Assembly: GCA_020975725.1 (NCBI GenBank)
Contig: QXJR01000003.1
Location: 434,001-498,000, forward strand
Direction: 5' to 3'
Origin: Picocystis sp. L7
Taxonomy: Eukaryota > Chlorophyta > Picocystophyceae > Picocystales > Picocystaceae
Length of the DNA: 64,000 nucleotides
The position numbers were made by a program, and so were the translations under genes. Position 1 is the stretch's first letter, and each line of letters starts with the position of its first letter. Under the pieces are notes generated by a model. It was not told where the DNA came from, searched no databases, and saw only the letters and a list, made by a program, of their open reading frames with translations. Shown here one piece after another: positions 3,652 to 62,210 of the stretch.

Positions 3652-3689
3652 CGTCGGTGCACCACCAACGCGTCCCATTGGAAACCAAG

Positions 3690-3847: not shown

Positions 3848-3861
3848 GGGAGTTTATTCTC
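3848..3861 (-). promoter_or_regulatory. GAGAATAAACTCCC element upstream of COG4
   Basis: Variant of the element shared by several promoters in this window, in sense orientation 196 bp before the COG4 ATG. It includes AATAAA, but no gene ends here, so a polyadenylation role is unlikely. Confidence 0.55.
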
Positions 3862-5352: not shown

Positions 5353-6452
5353 AGCATGCTGCCCATTCTCTTCATGGTGCTGCGCAGCTCCGCTCATGAC
5401 ACATAACAGGTCCCACTGCCCGTCATGTGGTACAGCAATAGTTTTTGTTTGTTGATTCCCAAGTATATCACGAGGTTTCTTATACGATTCCTGTATGCCT
5501 ACTTGCGAAGTTCAATTCAAGCAAGCACTCTGGGGATGCAGGGTAGAGCCTAGAAGGGAGCTCAAGATGGCCCTCGGAGTGAGGCATTTGTAGGTTGCGC
5601 ACTTGGCCAAGAACCTTTACTGCCGGCCCGCTTAGGTTTCGTCTGGTAGGAACGCTTTGCCAAGCATCAAAATCCACAGCACACTGAGCTTGTTTGGAAA
5701 CTGCTGTGGATCACGTTTGTTTCTATGACTGAGTATCTCGCAAAGTCAACAATTCCTCGAGGTCAAACTCTTGGCACCGAGCCACATGATCAGGATCGGT
5801 TTTGAACCGCTCGCTTGGTGTGCCACCAGGCCGTGAACGAGTCCGCATGATGGTACACCTTTCAAGTGGCTAGTTGAATAGGAAGGCATCCGTCAGTTTT
5901 GTGCTTGCTGCAGAATCCTTGCATGGCCGATCCTTTCACTACGACCAAGCACCACAACAATAAATTCGCCGTCATCGTTTGAACTAAAGTCAAAGACCTT
6001 GGCATGAGTCGTTGGCGATCATACTACCTTGAAGGCATCACCTTAGTATAGACCTGGAACGAAAGTATCCCTGGTAGGTTGTGCGGTCGAGGGTGGTTTG
6101 GAAACTTCTATGTACAATTGTTCCGTTCATTCGTTCGGTGACAAAGGCATCGAGTGCACCTTCTAGGTCAATCGATTGGAGAGCGTCAGGTCTTGTCACT
6201 TGTTGGACACACTTGCTATCATGCGGCACACCATCCGTTTGATCCATGTCCACGTTCCCCATACACCCTCGTTGGACGTATCTCCTCTCCCCTCGAGGAG
6301 AAGAAACTCCCCATTTCTTCCGCCCCTGTAGTGACCAGGGGCAACCAGACGGGAAGCGACCGAGGTCGCATGGGCGATCCCGATCCCATCGTCGCACTTT
6401 TCCACGTCGCATTCGATCTCGTGAGGTCGAGACACCTCGAGAACGCACCGCC
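5353..6452. other. Intergenic region without a supported gene
   Basis: About 1.1 kb, less GC-rich than its flanks in the first 700 bp. Short open frames on both strands lack recognisable domains. The right end is the VPS28 promoter with one GAGAAGAAACTCCC copy at 6298-6311. Confidence 0.6.
6298..6311 (+). promoter_or_regulatory. GAGAAGAAACTCCC element upstream of VPS28
   Basis: Exact copy of the shared element, in sense orientation, 141 bp before the VPS28 ATG. Flanking bases allow a short stem: GGAG, loop AAGAAA, CTCC. Confidence 0.6.
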
Positions 6453-7237
6453 ATGGCGTCGAACAAGACGCAAAGACCCGTGGTGCTGCACCAGGACAAG
6501 CGAGAAAAGGCGATGTACGAGGACTTCGCGGACCTCTTCGCCATCATCAAAACCACCGAAAAGCTCGAGAGGTGTGTCCGAACGAAACGAAATGCAGCTC
6601 GATCAAGTGTGCGAAAGGCACCGCTACGAAAGTTCGTACGAGGAGACGTGCGTCGATTCTGACGATACTCCGGGACGCGGGGACATGCAGGGCCTACGTG
6701 CGAGACGCAGTCTCCGCCAACGAGTACGAACCGGCGTGCCAGAAGCTCCTGGCCCAATTTAAAACGCTTTCTGCGTCGCTCAAAAACACCGTGCCGGATG
6801 TGGAAAGGTTCATTCAAACCTACAACCTCGACTGTCCCTTGGCCACGAGACGGCTCATCCACGTGGGCATGCCAGCAACCTTGGAACTCGGTAGAGCAGG
6901 AGTGCCGGAAAGCAGAAACTCTGCTGTGAGTGTCGCTGAGACCGTGCAGTACTTCATTACAGCAATGGATTCGCTCAAGCTGAACATGGTGGCCGTGGAC
7001 CAAGTTTTCCCTATACTCAGCGACTTGTTGCAAAGCATGCACCGTGTGGCCGAGCTGAAGCCAGACTTTGCAGGAAAGATCAAAATGAAAGAGTGGATCA
7101 CAAAGCTCCATGCCATGCCGGCTAGCCAAGAGCTTCAAGAGGACGAAGTAAGACAGCTGTTATTTGACCTCGAGTTCGGATACAACGCGTTCATGGCGTC
7201 GCTTGGACCACAGACATCGTTTGGCCAATCTTCCTAG
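6453..7237 (+). CDS. VPS28: VPS28, ESCRT-I subunit
   Basis: ESCRT-I component acting at endosomes in sorting of ubiquitinated membrane cargo and in scission events. Two exons, 6453-6571 and 6691-7237, give 221 residues, the normal VPS28 length. Exon 1 ends ...FAIIKTTEKLE and exon 2 resumes AYVRDAVSANEYEPACQKLL; the arginine codon is split (phase 2). The 119-bp intron is GTGTGT...CAG. The N-terminal core domain contains DCPLA (in LDCPLATRR), and the C-terminal four-helix domain includes MDSLKLNMVAVDQVFPILSD and a final LLFDLEFGYNAFMASL. The junction restores the animal LEKAYIKD pattern, which supports the splice model. It converges with COX19, with 155 bp between stop codons. Confidence 0.93.
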
Positions 7238-7392
7238 GCTTGATGTCCTCCCTTTTATTCTTTTGTGTATAGGCCTCTTGCCGGTGCTGTGGCAAGATCA
7301 GTGTAAGATAAGTTGCGTTTGGAATGCGAGTGAGTCGTGCCTTATGCTCTTGCCTTGTGTCTACCAGGTGTACCCCTGGGATCCACACGGTG

Positions 7393-19769: not shown

Positions 19770-20495
19770 CTAGTACGCGCGTCTCTTTCCGGTTCGTAGG
19801 ACGTCCTTGGCGGTTGTTTTGCCGAAGATGGAGGTCTTCCGCACGTCTCGTTTCGCGTTTCTCACGTGGTCGCGATCCCTCCTTGCGCATTCCACCTTAC
19901 TCATCGCGTGGTTGGCTTCCCATTCGTCTTCCGATTCCTTCGGCAGCAGTTTCACGTGTTCGGCGAGTCCCAGCTGCGCGGCTTCTCGTTCGCATCGGTC
20001 CCGTTTCCTTCTTGCCATCCTCAGCTTGGCCTTGGCCTTTTCGGCGTCTCTTCGTTCGTCCATCCTGGACATGTTGGCCTCTACCTTTCGTGCCTCTGTC
20101 TTCTGTTCGAGTTCTCTCATGGCGGATCTCTTGGTCCTTCCATCTTCGACGTCGGAGTGCGCTTCCACCACCAGTTCGGCTTCCTCGTGTTTCGCCACGA
20201 GTCCGCTGACGGCTTCGTAGGTCCCTTTCCGTACGTCTGCTCGTACGATCGCTTCTCCTTGGCAGCACTTGGATCTCGTCCGGAAGGTCCACGTCCATCC
20301 TTCCTCTTCCACGCCTTTCACGGCGTTGCTTCTGGTCCCTTGCGTCAGGTGTGCGCCGCAGTGTGCGCATTGGGCGTGGAAGGGGAGTTCGAACCGCACT
20401 TTGGTGGGTTGGCACGTCTTCTTCTTTCCTCCCAGTGCGGTTTGTCCGTCTGGCATCCACTTGTTGTCCGCACAGGTGGCTTGCAGCGTCGACAT
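19770..20495 (-). CDS. YJU2/CWC16-family (CCDC130-like) splicing factor
   Basis: 241 residues. The N-terminus MSTLQATCADNKW matches the MSxLxAxxADN start of plant and fungal CCDC130/YJU2 proteins, and KVRFELPFHAQCAHCGAHL followed by GTRSNAVK matches their IRFEMPFNIWCGGC...GVRFNAEK zinc-binding core. A second cysteine pair is in RTRSKCCQGEA. The C-terminal half is a charged helical region (AKAKLRMARRKRD). Family knowledge: CWC16 proteins join the spliceosome around the first catalytic step and bind near the branch site. The protein is divergent: about 25 residues present in relatives between the ADN start and the RFELP core are missing, which may reflect real shortening or an unrecognised exon. 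Confidence 0.72.
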   Translation of the reverse strand: MSTLQATCADNKWMPDGQTALGGKKKTCQPTKVRFELPFHAQCAHCGAHLTQGTRSNAVKGVEEEGWTWTFRTRSKCCQGEAIVRADVRKGTYEAVSGLVAKHEEAELVVEAHSDVEDGRTKRSAMRELEQKTEARKVEANMSRMDERRDAEKAKAKLRMARRKRDRCEREAAQLGLAEHVKLLPKESEDEWEANHAMSKVECARRDRDHVRNAKRDVRKTSIFGKTTAKDVLRTGKRRAY

Positions 20496-20828: not shown

Positions 20829-21258
20829 TTTCACAACACTGGTGTGGAGTGCATGGGACACGGTGGCACTGCCTTCACTGGATGGATTCGTTCCCGTGGA
20901 GGGTCAGAAAAGGTGTGGGAGAGAGAAGCGTGGACGCTCGTGGATGTGCTGGAAGCGTGGACCGACGAGCGGGATCGGAAGGACAAGGCAAGTGGAGATG
21001 CCGTCGGTACGCGTGCACACGCCATCGGAACTTGGTGTTGGGTGGATCGCCTGCTGGTGCGTTTGGCAGGGTCGTACCAGGTAGCGAAGGAAGGAGGATC
21101 ACGATCGACCTCTCACGTCCAAACCCACCGAGAAAGACGATTCGGCCAACCCCCAGCACCACTGCGCTGTGGGGTTGGTCGAAAGGAGGCATCCCCATCG
21201 ACGAGGGAGTTTCTTCTCTCCCGGGATCGGTGGTCTGGGTGGGGGAGAGGACCGAACG

Positions 21259-21530
21259 GAGAGAAGAAACTCCCTGGTGGAGCCGGAGAGGGAAGGGAGA
21301 GAAGAAACTCCCTGGTGGACCTGGAGAGCGAGAGCAAAGGGAGAGAAGAAACTCCCTGGTGGACCTGGAGAGCGAGAGCAAAGGGAGAGAAGAAACTCCC
21401 TGGTGGAGCCGGAGAGGGAAGGGAGAGAAGAAACTCCCTGGTGGACCTGGAGAGGGAGAGAAGAAACTCCCTGGTGGACCAGGAGAGGGAGAGGGAGAGA
21501 AGAAACTCCCTGGTGGACCTGGAGAGGGAG
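21259..21530 (+). repeat. Seven-copy tandem array of the GAGAAGAAACTCCC element
   Basis: Cores at 21261, 21299, 21343, 21387, 21425, 21458 and 21497, spaced 33-44 bp, each followed by TGGTGGA. In copies 2-7 the sequence reads GGGAGAGAAGAAACTCCC, which can fold as a GGGAG/CTCCC stem with an eight-base purine loop; copy 1 lacks the first G. The spacers are purine-rich GGAGAG repeats. The array ends 5 bp before the start codon of the F-box/WD40 gene, so most of it must be promoter and some of it 5' leader. Confidence 0.85.
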
Positions 21531-21535
21531 AGAGG

Positions 21536-23077
21536 ATGGACGATGGCGACGTCGGCATGGACACCACAGCTGTGTGCATGGAGGAGGAAGGAAGAGAAAG
21601 GGAAAGAAACGTGCACGATCCGCAAGTGATGGCCGCACTGGGACCCTACCTGGGAGAAAAGGAACTGGACGCACTCGAAAGGACCTGTCGAACCAGTCGA
21701 GACGCACTGCGAAGGGATGCAGGGATATGGATCGATCTCTATCGCAAACGATGGAAGCAAGTGCCATGGAACGATAGAGGAAACGTGGAAGAGGAATGGA
21801 ACGCCAGGAAAAGGTTCTTGCAACGCATAGAAGACACGAAAAAGTGGAAGTTCGCCGATCCCAAGGTGCACCTGGGAGAAGGAAAGCACAGCGCAAGACC
21901 AGGAGGTGCGAAGAACAAAGGGACGCGCGTCAAGGTGGTCGCGTCCACGCGCGTGGTGGTGACGTGCAGAGATACCTACGTCCTGCTGAATGCGGTGGAT
22001 AACAACCACCTCGTCGTGCAAGAAAGAAGGAGCCATGCAGACGCCATCGCGTGCCTGGAGACCTGGACTGGAAAGGATGGACAAGGTGGGACAGCCATCG
22101 GTGGACGTGATGGAGGGGTGAAAACCATCCTCCAAGGAAACCGTCCCAAAATCCTGCGTGGACACACCAAAAAAGTGACCTGCATCAAAGCTGGGCCCGA
22201 AGAAATACCCTGCATATTGGCCACTGGAAGCGGAGACAGCACCATCGTGCTGTGGAACGTGCCTGAAGGAGGCGACTTCGCGAAAATCACCAAAAAGGCG
22301 ATCATGCGAGGACATGGCGAAGCAATCGTCCATCTGGCATGGTCCGGACCGTACCTGGTCTCCGCCGGAGCGGATGGAAAAGTGAAACTGTGGGATGTCG
22401 ACAAAGTACAATGCAAGCAAACAGCCAAGTTCCCTGCGCCCATCAAGTACATGAAAGGCGTGGGCCAAGGAGGTGTGGTGCTTGCAACTGCCAAGACCTT
22501 CGTAGTGCTTGCTCCTGGGGAGCTCCGAGAAAGATACACCTTTGCTGGAGAAAACTTCCTGTCCATGGATGCAGCATGTGTCCATGGGATGCCAGTTTTC
22601 GCCATTGGGAGGGAAAACGGGAGTGTGAAGATCTGGGACTGCGAAAGAAAGGAACCCTGCACCCTCGCCTTCAGTGATGGGAATACACCCGTTTCTCACC
22701 TCAAAATAGACGGTGGAAAGGTTGTCGCTGCATCAAAAGCTAGCAGCACCATCAAAGTCTGGGAGCTGCCTGGCATGGGTGTCATACACGACGATGTCTT
22801 TGGCTGCATAGCTAGACGGGTGCAGCTGGACACTGTAGGAACATTGAACTTTCAAGATCCATGCAGTGCCTCCATCCAGGATGTCGATGCGAAAGGGAGC
22901 GTACTTGCAGCACTGGTGACATGGGAGGAAGATGAAACAGCTTTGGTGGTGGCAAGCTTTGAGCAATCGTTCCAATGCTTGAATGGACAAAGTGAGTATG
23001 TGCAAGGTTCGGTGAAAAGCAAATTCTGGCAGTATGAACAATATGATGAAGACATGTGTGGCTTCGTGGTGGATTGA
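21536..23077 (+). CDS. F-box plus WD40-repeat protein
   Basis: 513 residues from the ATG at 21536, the first after the upstream repeat array. After an acidic N-terminus, residues ~30-75 look like an F-box: MAALGPYLGEKELDALERTC then SRDALRRDAGIWIDLYRKRW. From about residue 140 there are WD40 blades, among them LRGHTKKVTCIKAG...LATGSGDSTIVLWNVPEG, MRGHGEAIVHLAWSG...VSAGADGKVKLWDV, ENGSVKIWD and SSTIKVWELPG. Family knowledge: F-box/WD40 proteins are substrate adaptors of SCF ubiquitin ligases. The target cannot be inferred. Expression is probably governed by the tandem element array, which is unique to this gene in the window. Confidence 0.85.
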   Translation: MDDGDVGMDTTAVCMEEEGRERERNVHDPQVMAALGPYLGEKELDALERTCRTSRDALRRDAGIWIDLYRKRWKQVPWNDRGNVEEEWNARKRFLQRIEDTKKWKFADPKVHLGEGKHSARPGGAKNKGTRVKVVASTRVVVTCRDTYVLLNAVDNNHLVVQERRSHADAIACLETWTGKDGQGGTAIGGRDGGVKTILQGNRPKILRGHTKKVTCIKAGPEEIPCILATGSGDSTIVLWNVPEGGDFAKITKKAIMRGHGEAIVHLAWSGPYLVSAGADGKVKLWDVDKVQCKQTAKFPAPIKYMKGVGQGGVVLATAKTFVVLAPGELRERYTFAGENFLSMDAACVHGMPVFAIGRENGSVKIWDCERKEPCTLAFSDGNTPVSHLKIDGGKVVAASKASSTIKVWELPGMGVIHDDVFGCIARRVQLDTVGTLNFQDPCSASIQDVDAKGSVLAALVTWEEDETALVVASFEQSFQCLNGQSEYVQGSVKSKFWQYEQYDEDMCGFVVD

Positions 23078-36390: not shown

Positions 36391-36737
36391 CGCGAAGAAA
36401 CCCCACGTCCGTCGGTTGTGTGGCATCCGTTCGCCCCCTCCCTCCCCCTTGGCGGCTGCCCTGTGTTCTTCCCACCACGAGATCGTCAGAGAATCAGAGG
36501 GGATCCCGTAGGAGATATCGATGCCTCCGCCGAAGGGGAAGGGAGGGCCGGACCCAACCACCACCCTCCCCGCCGGAGAGGGAGTTTCTTCTCCCTCGGA
36601 GGCGAGCGGGGGAGTTTATTCTGGGGTGGGGGGAGGAAGGGGGAAGGGGGGAGTTTATTCTGTGGTGGGGTGGGGGGGGGTCGAACCGACGCCAACAGGG
36701 GACAGAAGGACGTGGCCAAGGCGGATGGACGTGTCCA
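36391..36737. other. Pyruvate kinase promoter and G6PDH 3' flank
   Basis: 347 bp holding three promoter-element copies and G-rich runs. G6PDH ends at the right edge of this stretch, so its 3' UTR must lie here. Confidence 0.7.
36580..36662 (-). promoter_or_regulatory. Three copies of the shared element upstream of pyruvate kinase
   Basis: In the sense of pyruvate kinase: GAGAAGAAACTCCC (36593-36580), CAGAATAAACTCCC (36623-36610) and CAGAATAAACTCCC (36662-36649). The first sits in GAGGGAG-AAGAAA-CTCCCTC, a seven-pair hairpin. The outer two contain AATAAA 80-120 bp past the G6PDH stop in its sense and could also serve as its polyadenylation signals. Confidence 0.6.
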
Positions 36738-43971: not shown

Positions 43972-44762
43972 CTTCGTCCCATGGCCTTGCACACCTCCCA
44001 GAAGAAAAGCGTCAGACAGTACAAGTTGTGACTTTCACTACTATGTTCACCTCTCGGGGGGGGGGGTCCGGACGGCCACCGTTTGTGGGAGTCGAGGATG
44101 GAGGTGTTCTGTAGGGCACTTGGAGGCGATGGTTGGTGGTGATTCATCCGCCTCCTCCTCAACGTAGCATACGCGGAGGACGCTGTCTTGGTGCGTCCTG
44201 GAAGGGCGGTAGAGAGCACGTGAGCCATCGATGTGTCGCACCAACCTCAATTCACACCCAAAGGCGGTCTCCCCTCGCACAAACGAGGACATTGTGCACA
44301 CTCCAAGGCGTTTGATCTCGGCTTGGTTTCCCCCCGTTTTCGAAGCTGTTTGTGCCTTCCACGGAATTGCCGATGCTTCGGAGGTGCACTCCTGTCGATT
44401 TGGTTGTTCAACATGCAACGATGGAGACGATGAGTTCGTGAAGTTCGTCCATGGTTCAACGCTCGCCGACCTCTGCGAAAGGACGACTCGAAAGAACGGC
44501 ATTCCTGCAGCACATGCATGTTAACGTGGACCATGGCATCCGCCATGGCCACTTTTCCGTGTTTTCCTCCTCCACGTGCACGTGCGTCCGCCATGGCCCC
44601 ATGTGGGATGGGGATCCTTGTGGACTCCAACCCACCCCTCGGAGAGAAGAAACTCCCCCTGACGAGGACCCTGGAGTGCCATTTCCGGTTTCGATTGAAA
44701 ACCACGAGGACGTGTCGCACCGCGACGAAGGGAATTGCGAAGCACGAACGCTTCGACGCGGG
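43972..44762. other. Divergent promoter region Ap4A phosphorylase / UCHL3
   Basis: 790 bp. Contains an 11-G run near 44056 and one copy of the shared promoter element at 44644-44657. Overlapping open frames have no domain. Confidence 0.6.
44644..44657 (+). promoter_or_regulatory. GAGAAGAAACTCCC element upstream of UCHL3
   Basis: Exact copy in sense orientation, 105 bp before the ATG, in GGAG-AGAAGAAA-CTCC context that can pair as a short stem. Confidence 0.6.
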
Positions 44763-62067: not shown

Positions 62068-62128
62068 GCGTTTGGCGGGTACGTGCCTCCGATCCACCCC
62101 TTCGGCGAAGAGGGGAAGGGAGGGGGGA

Positions 62129-62210
62129 GAGATGGCGGGAAAGGGAAGGGAAGGGGGGGAGAGATGGCGGGAAAGGGAAGGGAAGGGGGGAGAGATGGCG
62201 GGAAAGGGGG
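62129..62210. repeat. Three tandem 31-32-bp repeats containing E2F-like sites
   Basis: GAGATGGCGGGAAAGGG occurs at 62129, 62161 and 62192 in G-rich spacers. Each copy holds GGCGGGAAA (62134, 62166, 62197), the reverse complement of TTTCCCGCC, a textbook E2F/DP site. It lies between divergent starts, 50-130 bp before eIF2A. Confidence 0.6.

Follow-up and report, generated by a model that had tools for sequence, protein, structure and literature searches.

A near-invariant, directional word upstream of Picocystis genes and its repeated tandem amplification

Known promoter elements and promoter repeats

Motif 1 of Drosophila is a housekeeping core-promoter motif bound by the zinc-finger protein M1BP. 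Plant promoters carry the Y patch and GA-rich elements, which are rich in purines or pyrimidines, sensitive to direction and situated near the start, the Y patch being short and degenerate. In yeast, tandem repeats and minisatellites in promoters affect expression. The element described here, GAGAAGAAACTCCC, stands in seven tandem copies upstream of a WD40 protein gene within a 64-kb stretch of DNA from the alga Picocystis, which was analysed over its full length and is called the window below. It resembles Motif 1 in being a rather invariant, direction-biased word near what appear to be housekeeping starts, but differs from it in sequence and lineage, and its binding protein is putative. We know of no long tandem arrays of M1BP sites. 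Like the Y patch and the GA-rich elements, the algal word is purine/pyrimidine-rich, direction-sensitive and apparently start-proximal; unlike the Y patch, it is a near-exact 12- to 14-mer.

Promoter tandem repeats, as treated in the available part of a plant and algal survey (PMC3887541), share with the algal arrays units of tens of bp near the gene start. In contrast to these, one native 14-mer forms the core of at least 20 arrays in the alga, and their spacers differ. The same part of the survey places the densest repeats of two green algae in introns and coding sequence. A transcription-factor site multiplied at its target gene is also described, in the excerpted account, for the fuzzy tandem repeats of p53 response elements (PMC3386156), which are intronic and belong to one mammalian factor, whereas the algal arrays lie upstream of many genes. 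By title, no core-promoter study of prasinophyte-grade algae was found among the literature matches listed, and no algal-promoter paper among those listed for the motif strings. Picocystis is a primary producer of saline soda lakes, and the draft genome of Picocystis sp. ML comprises 29.6 Mb at 53.6% GC, according to the portion of the report at hand (PMC6346183).

The seven-copy array and other copies in the window

Exact matching in the window locates seven copies of GAGAAGAAACTCCC on the forward strand between 21261 and 21510, namely at 21261-21274, 21299-21312, 21343-21356, 21387-21400, 21425-21438, 21458-21471 and 21497-21510. They follow each other at 38, 44, 44, 38, 33 and 39 bp and are separated by spacers of 19-30 bp, and TRF delimits the tandem array as 21244-21533 (+). 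The seven copies at a spacing of 33-44 bp that an earlier note on this DNA had claimed are thus borne out. The note had also let the array stop 5 bp short of the ATG at 21536, which holds for the repeat as its reader drew it; the TRF repeat ends 2 bp and the last exact 14-mer 25 bp ahead of that codon. With up to two mismatches allowed, the window contains 15 matches to GAGAARAAACTCCC, whereas 100 shuffled versions average 1.49 and reach 6 at most.

The gene downstream of the array (21536-23077, +) encodes a protein of 513 amino acids. Of its earlier designation as F-box/WD40, the WD40 part is confirmed by Pfam; an F-box family is absent both from the 22 Pfam families at an E-value of 0.001 and from the best 25 of 29 at an E-value of 10, and the N-terminus has a pattern that we take to be F-box-like. 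It shares 58-59% identity with the corresponding P. salinarum protein, and another product of the window, of histone-acetyltransferase type, shares 80% with a protein from a P. salinarum transcript; we take these values to indicate a Picocystis-like chlorophyte other than P. salinarum itself. The frame upstream of the ATG at 21536 stays open across the array, back to 20849, and a first, cruder codon model called the WD40 frame coding from 20882, through the array. A coding array was rejected, as four of the six spacings are not multiples of three, P. salinarum P0008 and the protein P0007 start at the same methionine (21536), and the retrained codon model likewise sets the start at 21536. The open frame upstream of this position is taken as incidental.

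A sister-strain protein, P0006, is 98% identical, and its N-terminal run corresponds to the array region translated in the open upstream frame. This extension contains two motif copies compared to the seven of the window, and the letters of the inverted copy described below are preserved in it at the protein level. Since all 25-, 31- and 41-mers of the two-copy path are also present in the seven-copy array, a short-word assembly could have shortened the P0006 contig, and the lower copy number may stem from such a collapse or from a difference between strains.

Copies of the element ahead of other genes, which the earlier note had pointed out, are real. A single copy at 6298-6311 (+) lies 141 bp before the start of VPS28 (ATG 6453), and the variant GAGAATAAACTCCC, with T at its sixth base, lies at 3848-3861 (-), 169 bp before the start of COG4 (ATG 3676-3678, -). 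An exact single copy at 36580-36593 (-) is located upstream of pyruvate kinase; two ATGs, at distances of 153 and 189 bp, are candidates for the uncertain start of this gene. These starts were assigned by eye, from N-termini that we take to be those of the proteins named; the first exons proposed for VPS28 and COG4, both short, gave no Pfam match to either family. The single copy at 44644-44657 (+) precedes the by-eye ATG (44763) of a UCH-type ubiquitin hydrolase by 105 bp, the next coding start according to the codon model being 338 bp away. Finally, one inverted copy at 21205-21218 (-) is situated 709 bp from the nearest predicted sense exon, that of a Saf4/Yju2-like gene (19770-20495, -; Pfam PF04502), which may not contain the gene's true start.

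Mismatch-tolerant matching adds two diverged copies, both CAGAATAAACTCCC, at 36610-36623 and 36649-36662 (-), beside the exact copy upstream of pyruvate kinase; they carry C for the usual G. A repeat of 200-290 bp (window 20951-21229, -) recurs with 67-81% identity at two further loci (L062, 1249-1526; L064, 1279-1479). At three genes that are unrelated to one another, it directly follows the motif on the downstream side. It contains a GTGAG-type site and is possibly an introner or else a repeat of the 5' leader.

Abundance, position and amplification across the genome

The genome search, which the earlier note had suggested, covered 20.5 Mb in 30 contigs and returned a large excess of the word. 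GAGAAGAAACTC occurs 314 times on one strand and 338 times on the other, 652 in total, compared to 8 for the reversed control, and the excess disappears when another first base replaces its own (34 versus 25). GAGAARAAACTCCC occurs 244 + 272 times versus 1 + 0 for the same letters in reverse order. At two mismatches, the 14-mer yields 1258 matches versus 294, so that about half of the excess is exact and the remainder near-exact. The T variant AGAATAAACTC is itself abundant (100 versus 1). The tandem motif pattern gave 0 matches in viral contigs. The finding is larger than first noted: a near-invariant, directional, gene-upstream word with about 650 copies and at least 20 amplifications.

Position and direction relative to genes were determined for 51 motif clusters (31 single, 20 arrays) that follow the pattern GAGAA[GTA]AAACTCC in the window and in loci L001-L005 and L039-L078, leaving out L057 as a duplicate and L058 and L066 as retrotransposon sequence. 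The sample covers the listed sites of the window's contig, C1, except 1334751, 1361267 and 1410555. Its arrays are 19 of the 20 listed ones plus the longer-spacer pair L005; the twentieth listed array (36580) was scored as a single, its other copies being diverged. Genes were predicted by a codon model that had been trained on these very sequences, which makes individual predicted starts uncertain.

A predicted sense start is found within 400 bp of 34 of the 51 clusters, compared to 8.1% when 40,000 positions are drawn at random from the 46 sampled sequences. The median distance between motif and start is 122 bp in these 34 clusters, most of which are 25-240 bp from the predicted ATG, and in 15 of the 20 array clusters such a start lies no more than 400 bp from the last copy. 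Inside a predicted reading frame there is a single cluster (1/51), compared to 49.5% at random placement; in this sample, the motif is thus not equally common inside genes. Of the other 17 clusters, four were assigned a start by eye, at the distances given above for VPS28, COG4 and pyruvate kinase and at 228 bp for a methyltransferase gene (L049), and 13 remain without; at the second site of L042, a predicted sense start is absent within 3 kb. The word points only toward a start in 26 clusters, only away in five, both ways in eight and neither way in 12 (p = 2e-4). An orientation preference near starts can arise from sequence asymmetry alone, according to the part of the source available (PMC4778318).

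Downstream genes with Pfam names include COG4, VPS28, Sec6, Sec10, Sec20, an adaptor small chain, SNF2 remodellers, ESCO, PRORP, CAF1, pyruvate kinase and a Toprim/DnaB helicase, among others. They are diverse housekeeping genes, serving vesicle tethering and traffic, chromatin, cohesion, RNA processing, ubiquitin and metabolism.

Tandem arrays number at least 20, and the 20 listed ones contain 63 adjacent copy pairs; the listing took spacers of 8-38 bp only and missed longer ones. Fetched arrays range from two to 24 copies, and two of them span 1089 and 1164 bp. By eye, the spacers differ between the 20 arrays, which suggests separate amplifications. The presence of the element genome-wide, upstream of genes and in at least 20 arrays supports the view of the earlier note that the window's array is an amplified native element and not random satellite DNA. 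In arrays of at least three copies, adjacent copies differ at 11 of 1106 motif positions, eight of the 11 in array L054, compared to 114 of 2180 spacer positions plus 328 gap columns. Spacers thus diverge faster than the motif (Fisher p = 5.5e-11, sites taken as independent), in a comparison biased toward intact motifs by the choice of arrays through exact copies. Decayed copies with up to five mismatches lie between the outermost exact copies of L039, L040 and L050 (one each) and of L054 (three). In L049, all 19 motifs are exact, and the spacers of 34-58 bp have diverged. A predicted frame of 599 amino acids crosses much of this array before reaching the methyltransferase domain; the by-eye ATG, 228 bp past the last copy, was taken as the start of the gene.

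The composition of the flanking strands changes at the motif. GC skew is -0.23 over the 60 bp that precede it and +0.18 over the 60 bp that follow, and the second value exceeds the first in 45 of 51 clusters. At starts lacking the motif (n=38), the rise is weaker, 0.20 compared to 0.40 at the motif; this 0.20 belongs to a cut 120 bp before the ATG and is the largest of four cuts tried, those at 60, 180 and 240 bp giving a rise near zero. A position table of 59 clusters reveals a change from C-rich to G-rich around the motif, the motif alone supplying the conserved letters. The motif therefore lies roughly at the point where strand composition changes in genes of this alga, and the change is more abrupt where the motif is present. 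For Arabidopsis and rice, the available part of PMC555766 describes a C-over-G skew with its maximum around the start of transcription. The algal pattern, C-rich before and G-rich after the motif, differs from this, which leaves the analogy loose and a lead rather than a mapped start. ATG triplets between motif and start are not clearly depleted (23 versus 27.5 expected from dinucleotides, 27 clusters), and this count gives the reading that transcripts start at the motif no support.

The preferred reading and its alternatives

Taken together, we consider it probable that GAGAAGAAACTCCC is a directional, protein-bound promoter element near the transcription start that has been locally amplified many times. 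A sequence-specific protein would recognise it as double-stranded DNA, close to where transcription begins in several hundred genes, most of them with housekeeping roles. Along with a bit of flank, the element would have been duplicated in tandem in at least 20 promoters by slippage or unequal exchange. These amplifications were apparently independent, and the seven-copy array of the WD40 gene would be one case among them. We postulate that selection preserves the array copies, most likely because additional sites strengthen or stabilise transcription, and copy number is a plausible, putative knob of transcription strength. A wider proposal, to which we give only tentative credence, is that a lineage-specific core-promoter word sets the start of several hundred genes, that copy number, from 1 to 24, acts as a heritable dosage knob, and that copia-type LTRs took the word up. 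A near-invariant, directional, gene-upstream word would offer a handle on core-promoter evolution in the early-branching green lineage; some twenty amplifications of one word represent natural experiments on site number versus expression, and the element could supply a promoter part for Picocystis work.

An alternative that we regard as unlikely places the action of the element in the 5' leader of the mRNA, where it would be single-stranded and would influence translation or stability through an RNA-binding protein or a small RNA. Being read in the leader, the element would have its direction fixed by the transcript, and both the preferred direction and the short distance to the predicted ATG in most of the 34 clusters agree with this. 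The AAGAAA core is predicted to be unpaired (0.85), and the skew change could mark a transcribed leader beginning at or before the motif. However, the two arrays exceeding 1 kb would demand long leaders, the copia-type end repeat treated below holds the element near its outer end as an inverted pair, and the change from C-rich to G-rich looks as if transcription began near the motif, not far upstream.

That the dispersed copies are remnants of mobile elements, or that the arrays are neutral minisatellites near genes by chance, appears improbable to us, even though a retrotransposon does carry the word. Locus L058 (G000:C3:884001-894000) contains a copia-type frame with gag, reverse transcriptase and weak integrase matches, flanked by direct end repeats of 305 bp that are 100% identical (2372-2676 and 7067-7371). 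Each repeat has the 12-mer as an inverted pair at nucleotides 23-52; this 30-bp pair occurs 21 times exactly in the genome, and L066 includes a 299-bp stretch 97% identical to the L058 end repeat. Such an origin could also draw on the 200-290 bp repeat beside the motif at three loci. Yet the inverted pairs explain only about 42 of the 652 12-mers, and shared sequence beyond the motif is absent from the 59-cluster table, except in the copia-type end repeats and the three common-repeat loci; pairwise flank comparison covered one 300-bp stretch of the window. A transposon remnant was therefore rejected for most copies, and differing array spacers, non-random position and direction, and the faster divergence of spacers speak against both versions. 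As a copia-type element needs the host transcription machinery, its bearing the same word would fit the promoter role we prefer.

Somewhat less probable still is a site of chromosome biology located in promoters, be it an insulator, a nucleosome-free spacer, a replication origin or a recombination site, from which arrays would grow by the site's own breakage or recombination. A long, near-invariant and repeatedly amplified word could be expected of such a site, but the direction toward the start codon and the median of 122 bp fit a promoter better.

Hairpins of the form GGGAG-loop-CTCCC, strung along the array in RNA or DNA, are already largely refuted and scarcely credible; the earlier note had suggested that the array could form them in the 5' leader if transcribed. 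The stem can be drawn for six of the seven window copies, which GGGA precedes (copy 1 reads CGGAG), but stem length, folding and compensatory changes give no support. Mean stem length in the 51 clusters is 3.98 both in the native sequence and with permuted flanks, 23 clusters have only the 3-bp GAG/CTC arms, and native folding is somewhat weaker than permuted (z +2.26 in all 51, +0.75 in singles, +1.35 in arrays). Compensatory GAG/CTC changes are not enriched: GBGAAGAAACVC has 73 matches (control 38), of which 27 by hand count carry compensatory arm replacements, about the third expected if arms vary independently with equal base use. At gathering score, no Rfam family matched the window or any of 11 loci.

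Two further repeat patterns were observed. Several AGAATAAACTC sites are paired at exactly 4580 or 4719 bp, which suggests further LTR families carrying the T variant. Furthermore, a second array in the window (62113-62208) consists of three 31-32 bp repeats with GGCGGGAAA, presumably an E2F-like sequence, some 50 bp upstream of where an eIF2A gene is predicted to begin. The 16-mer of this array is present four times in the genome, three of them here, and the array is therefore not of the same genome-wide type as GAGAAGAAACTCCC.
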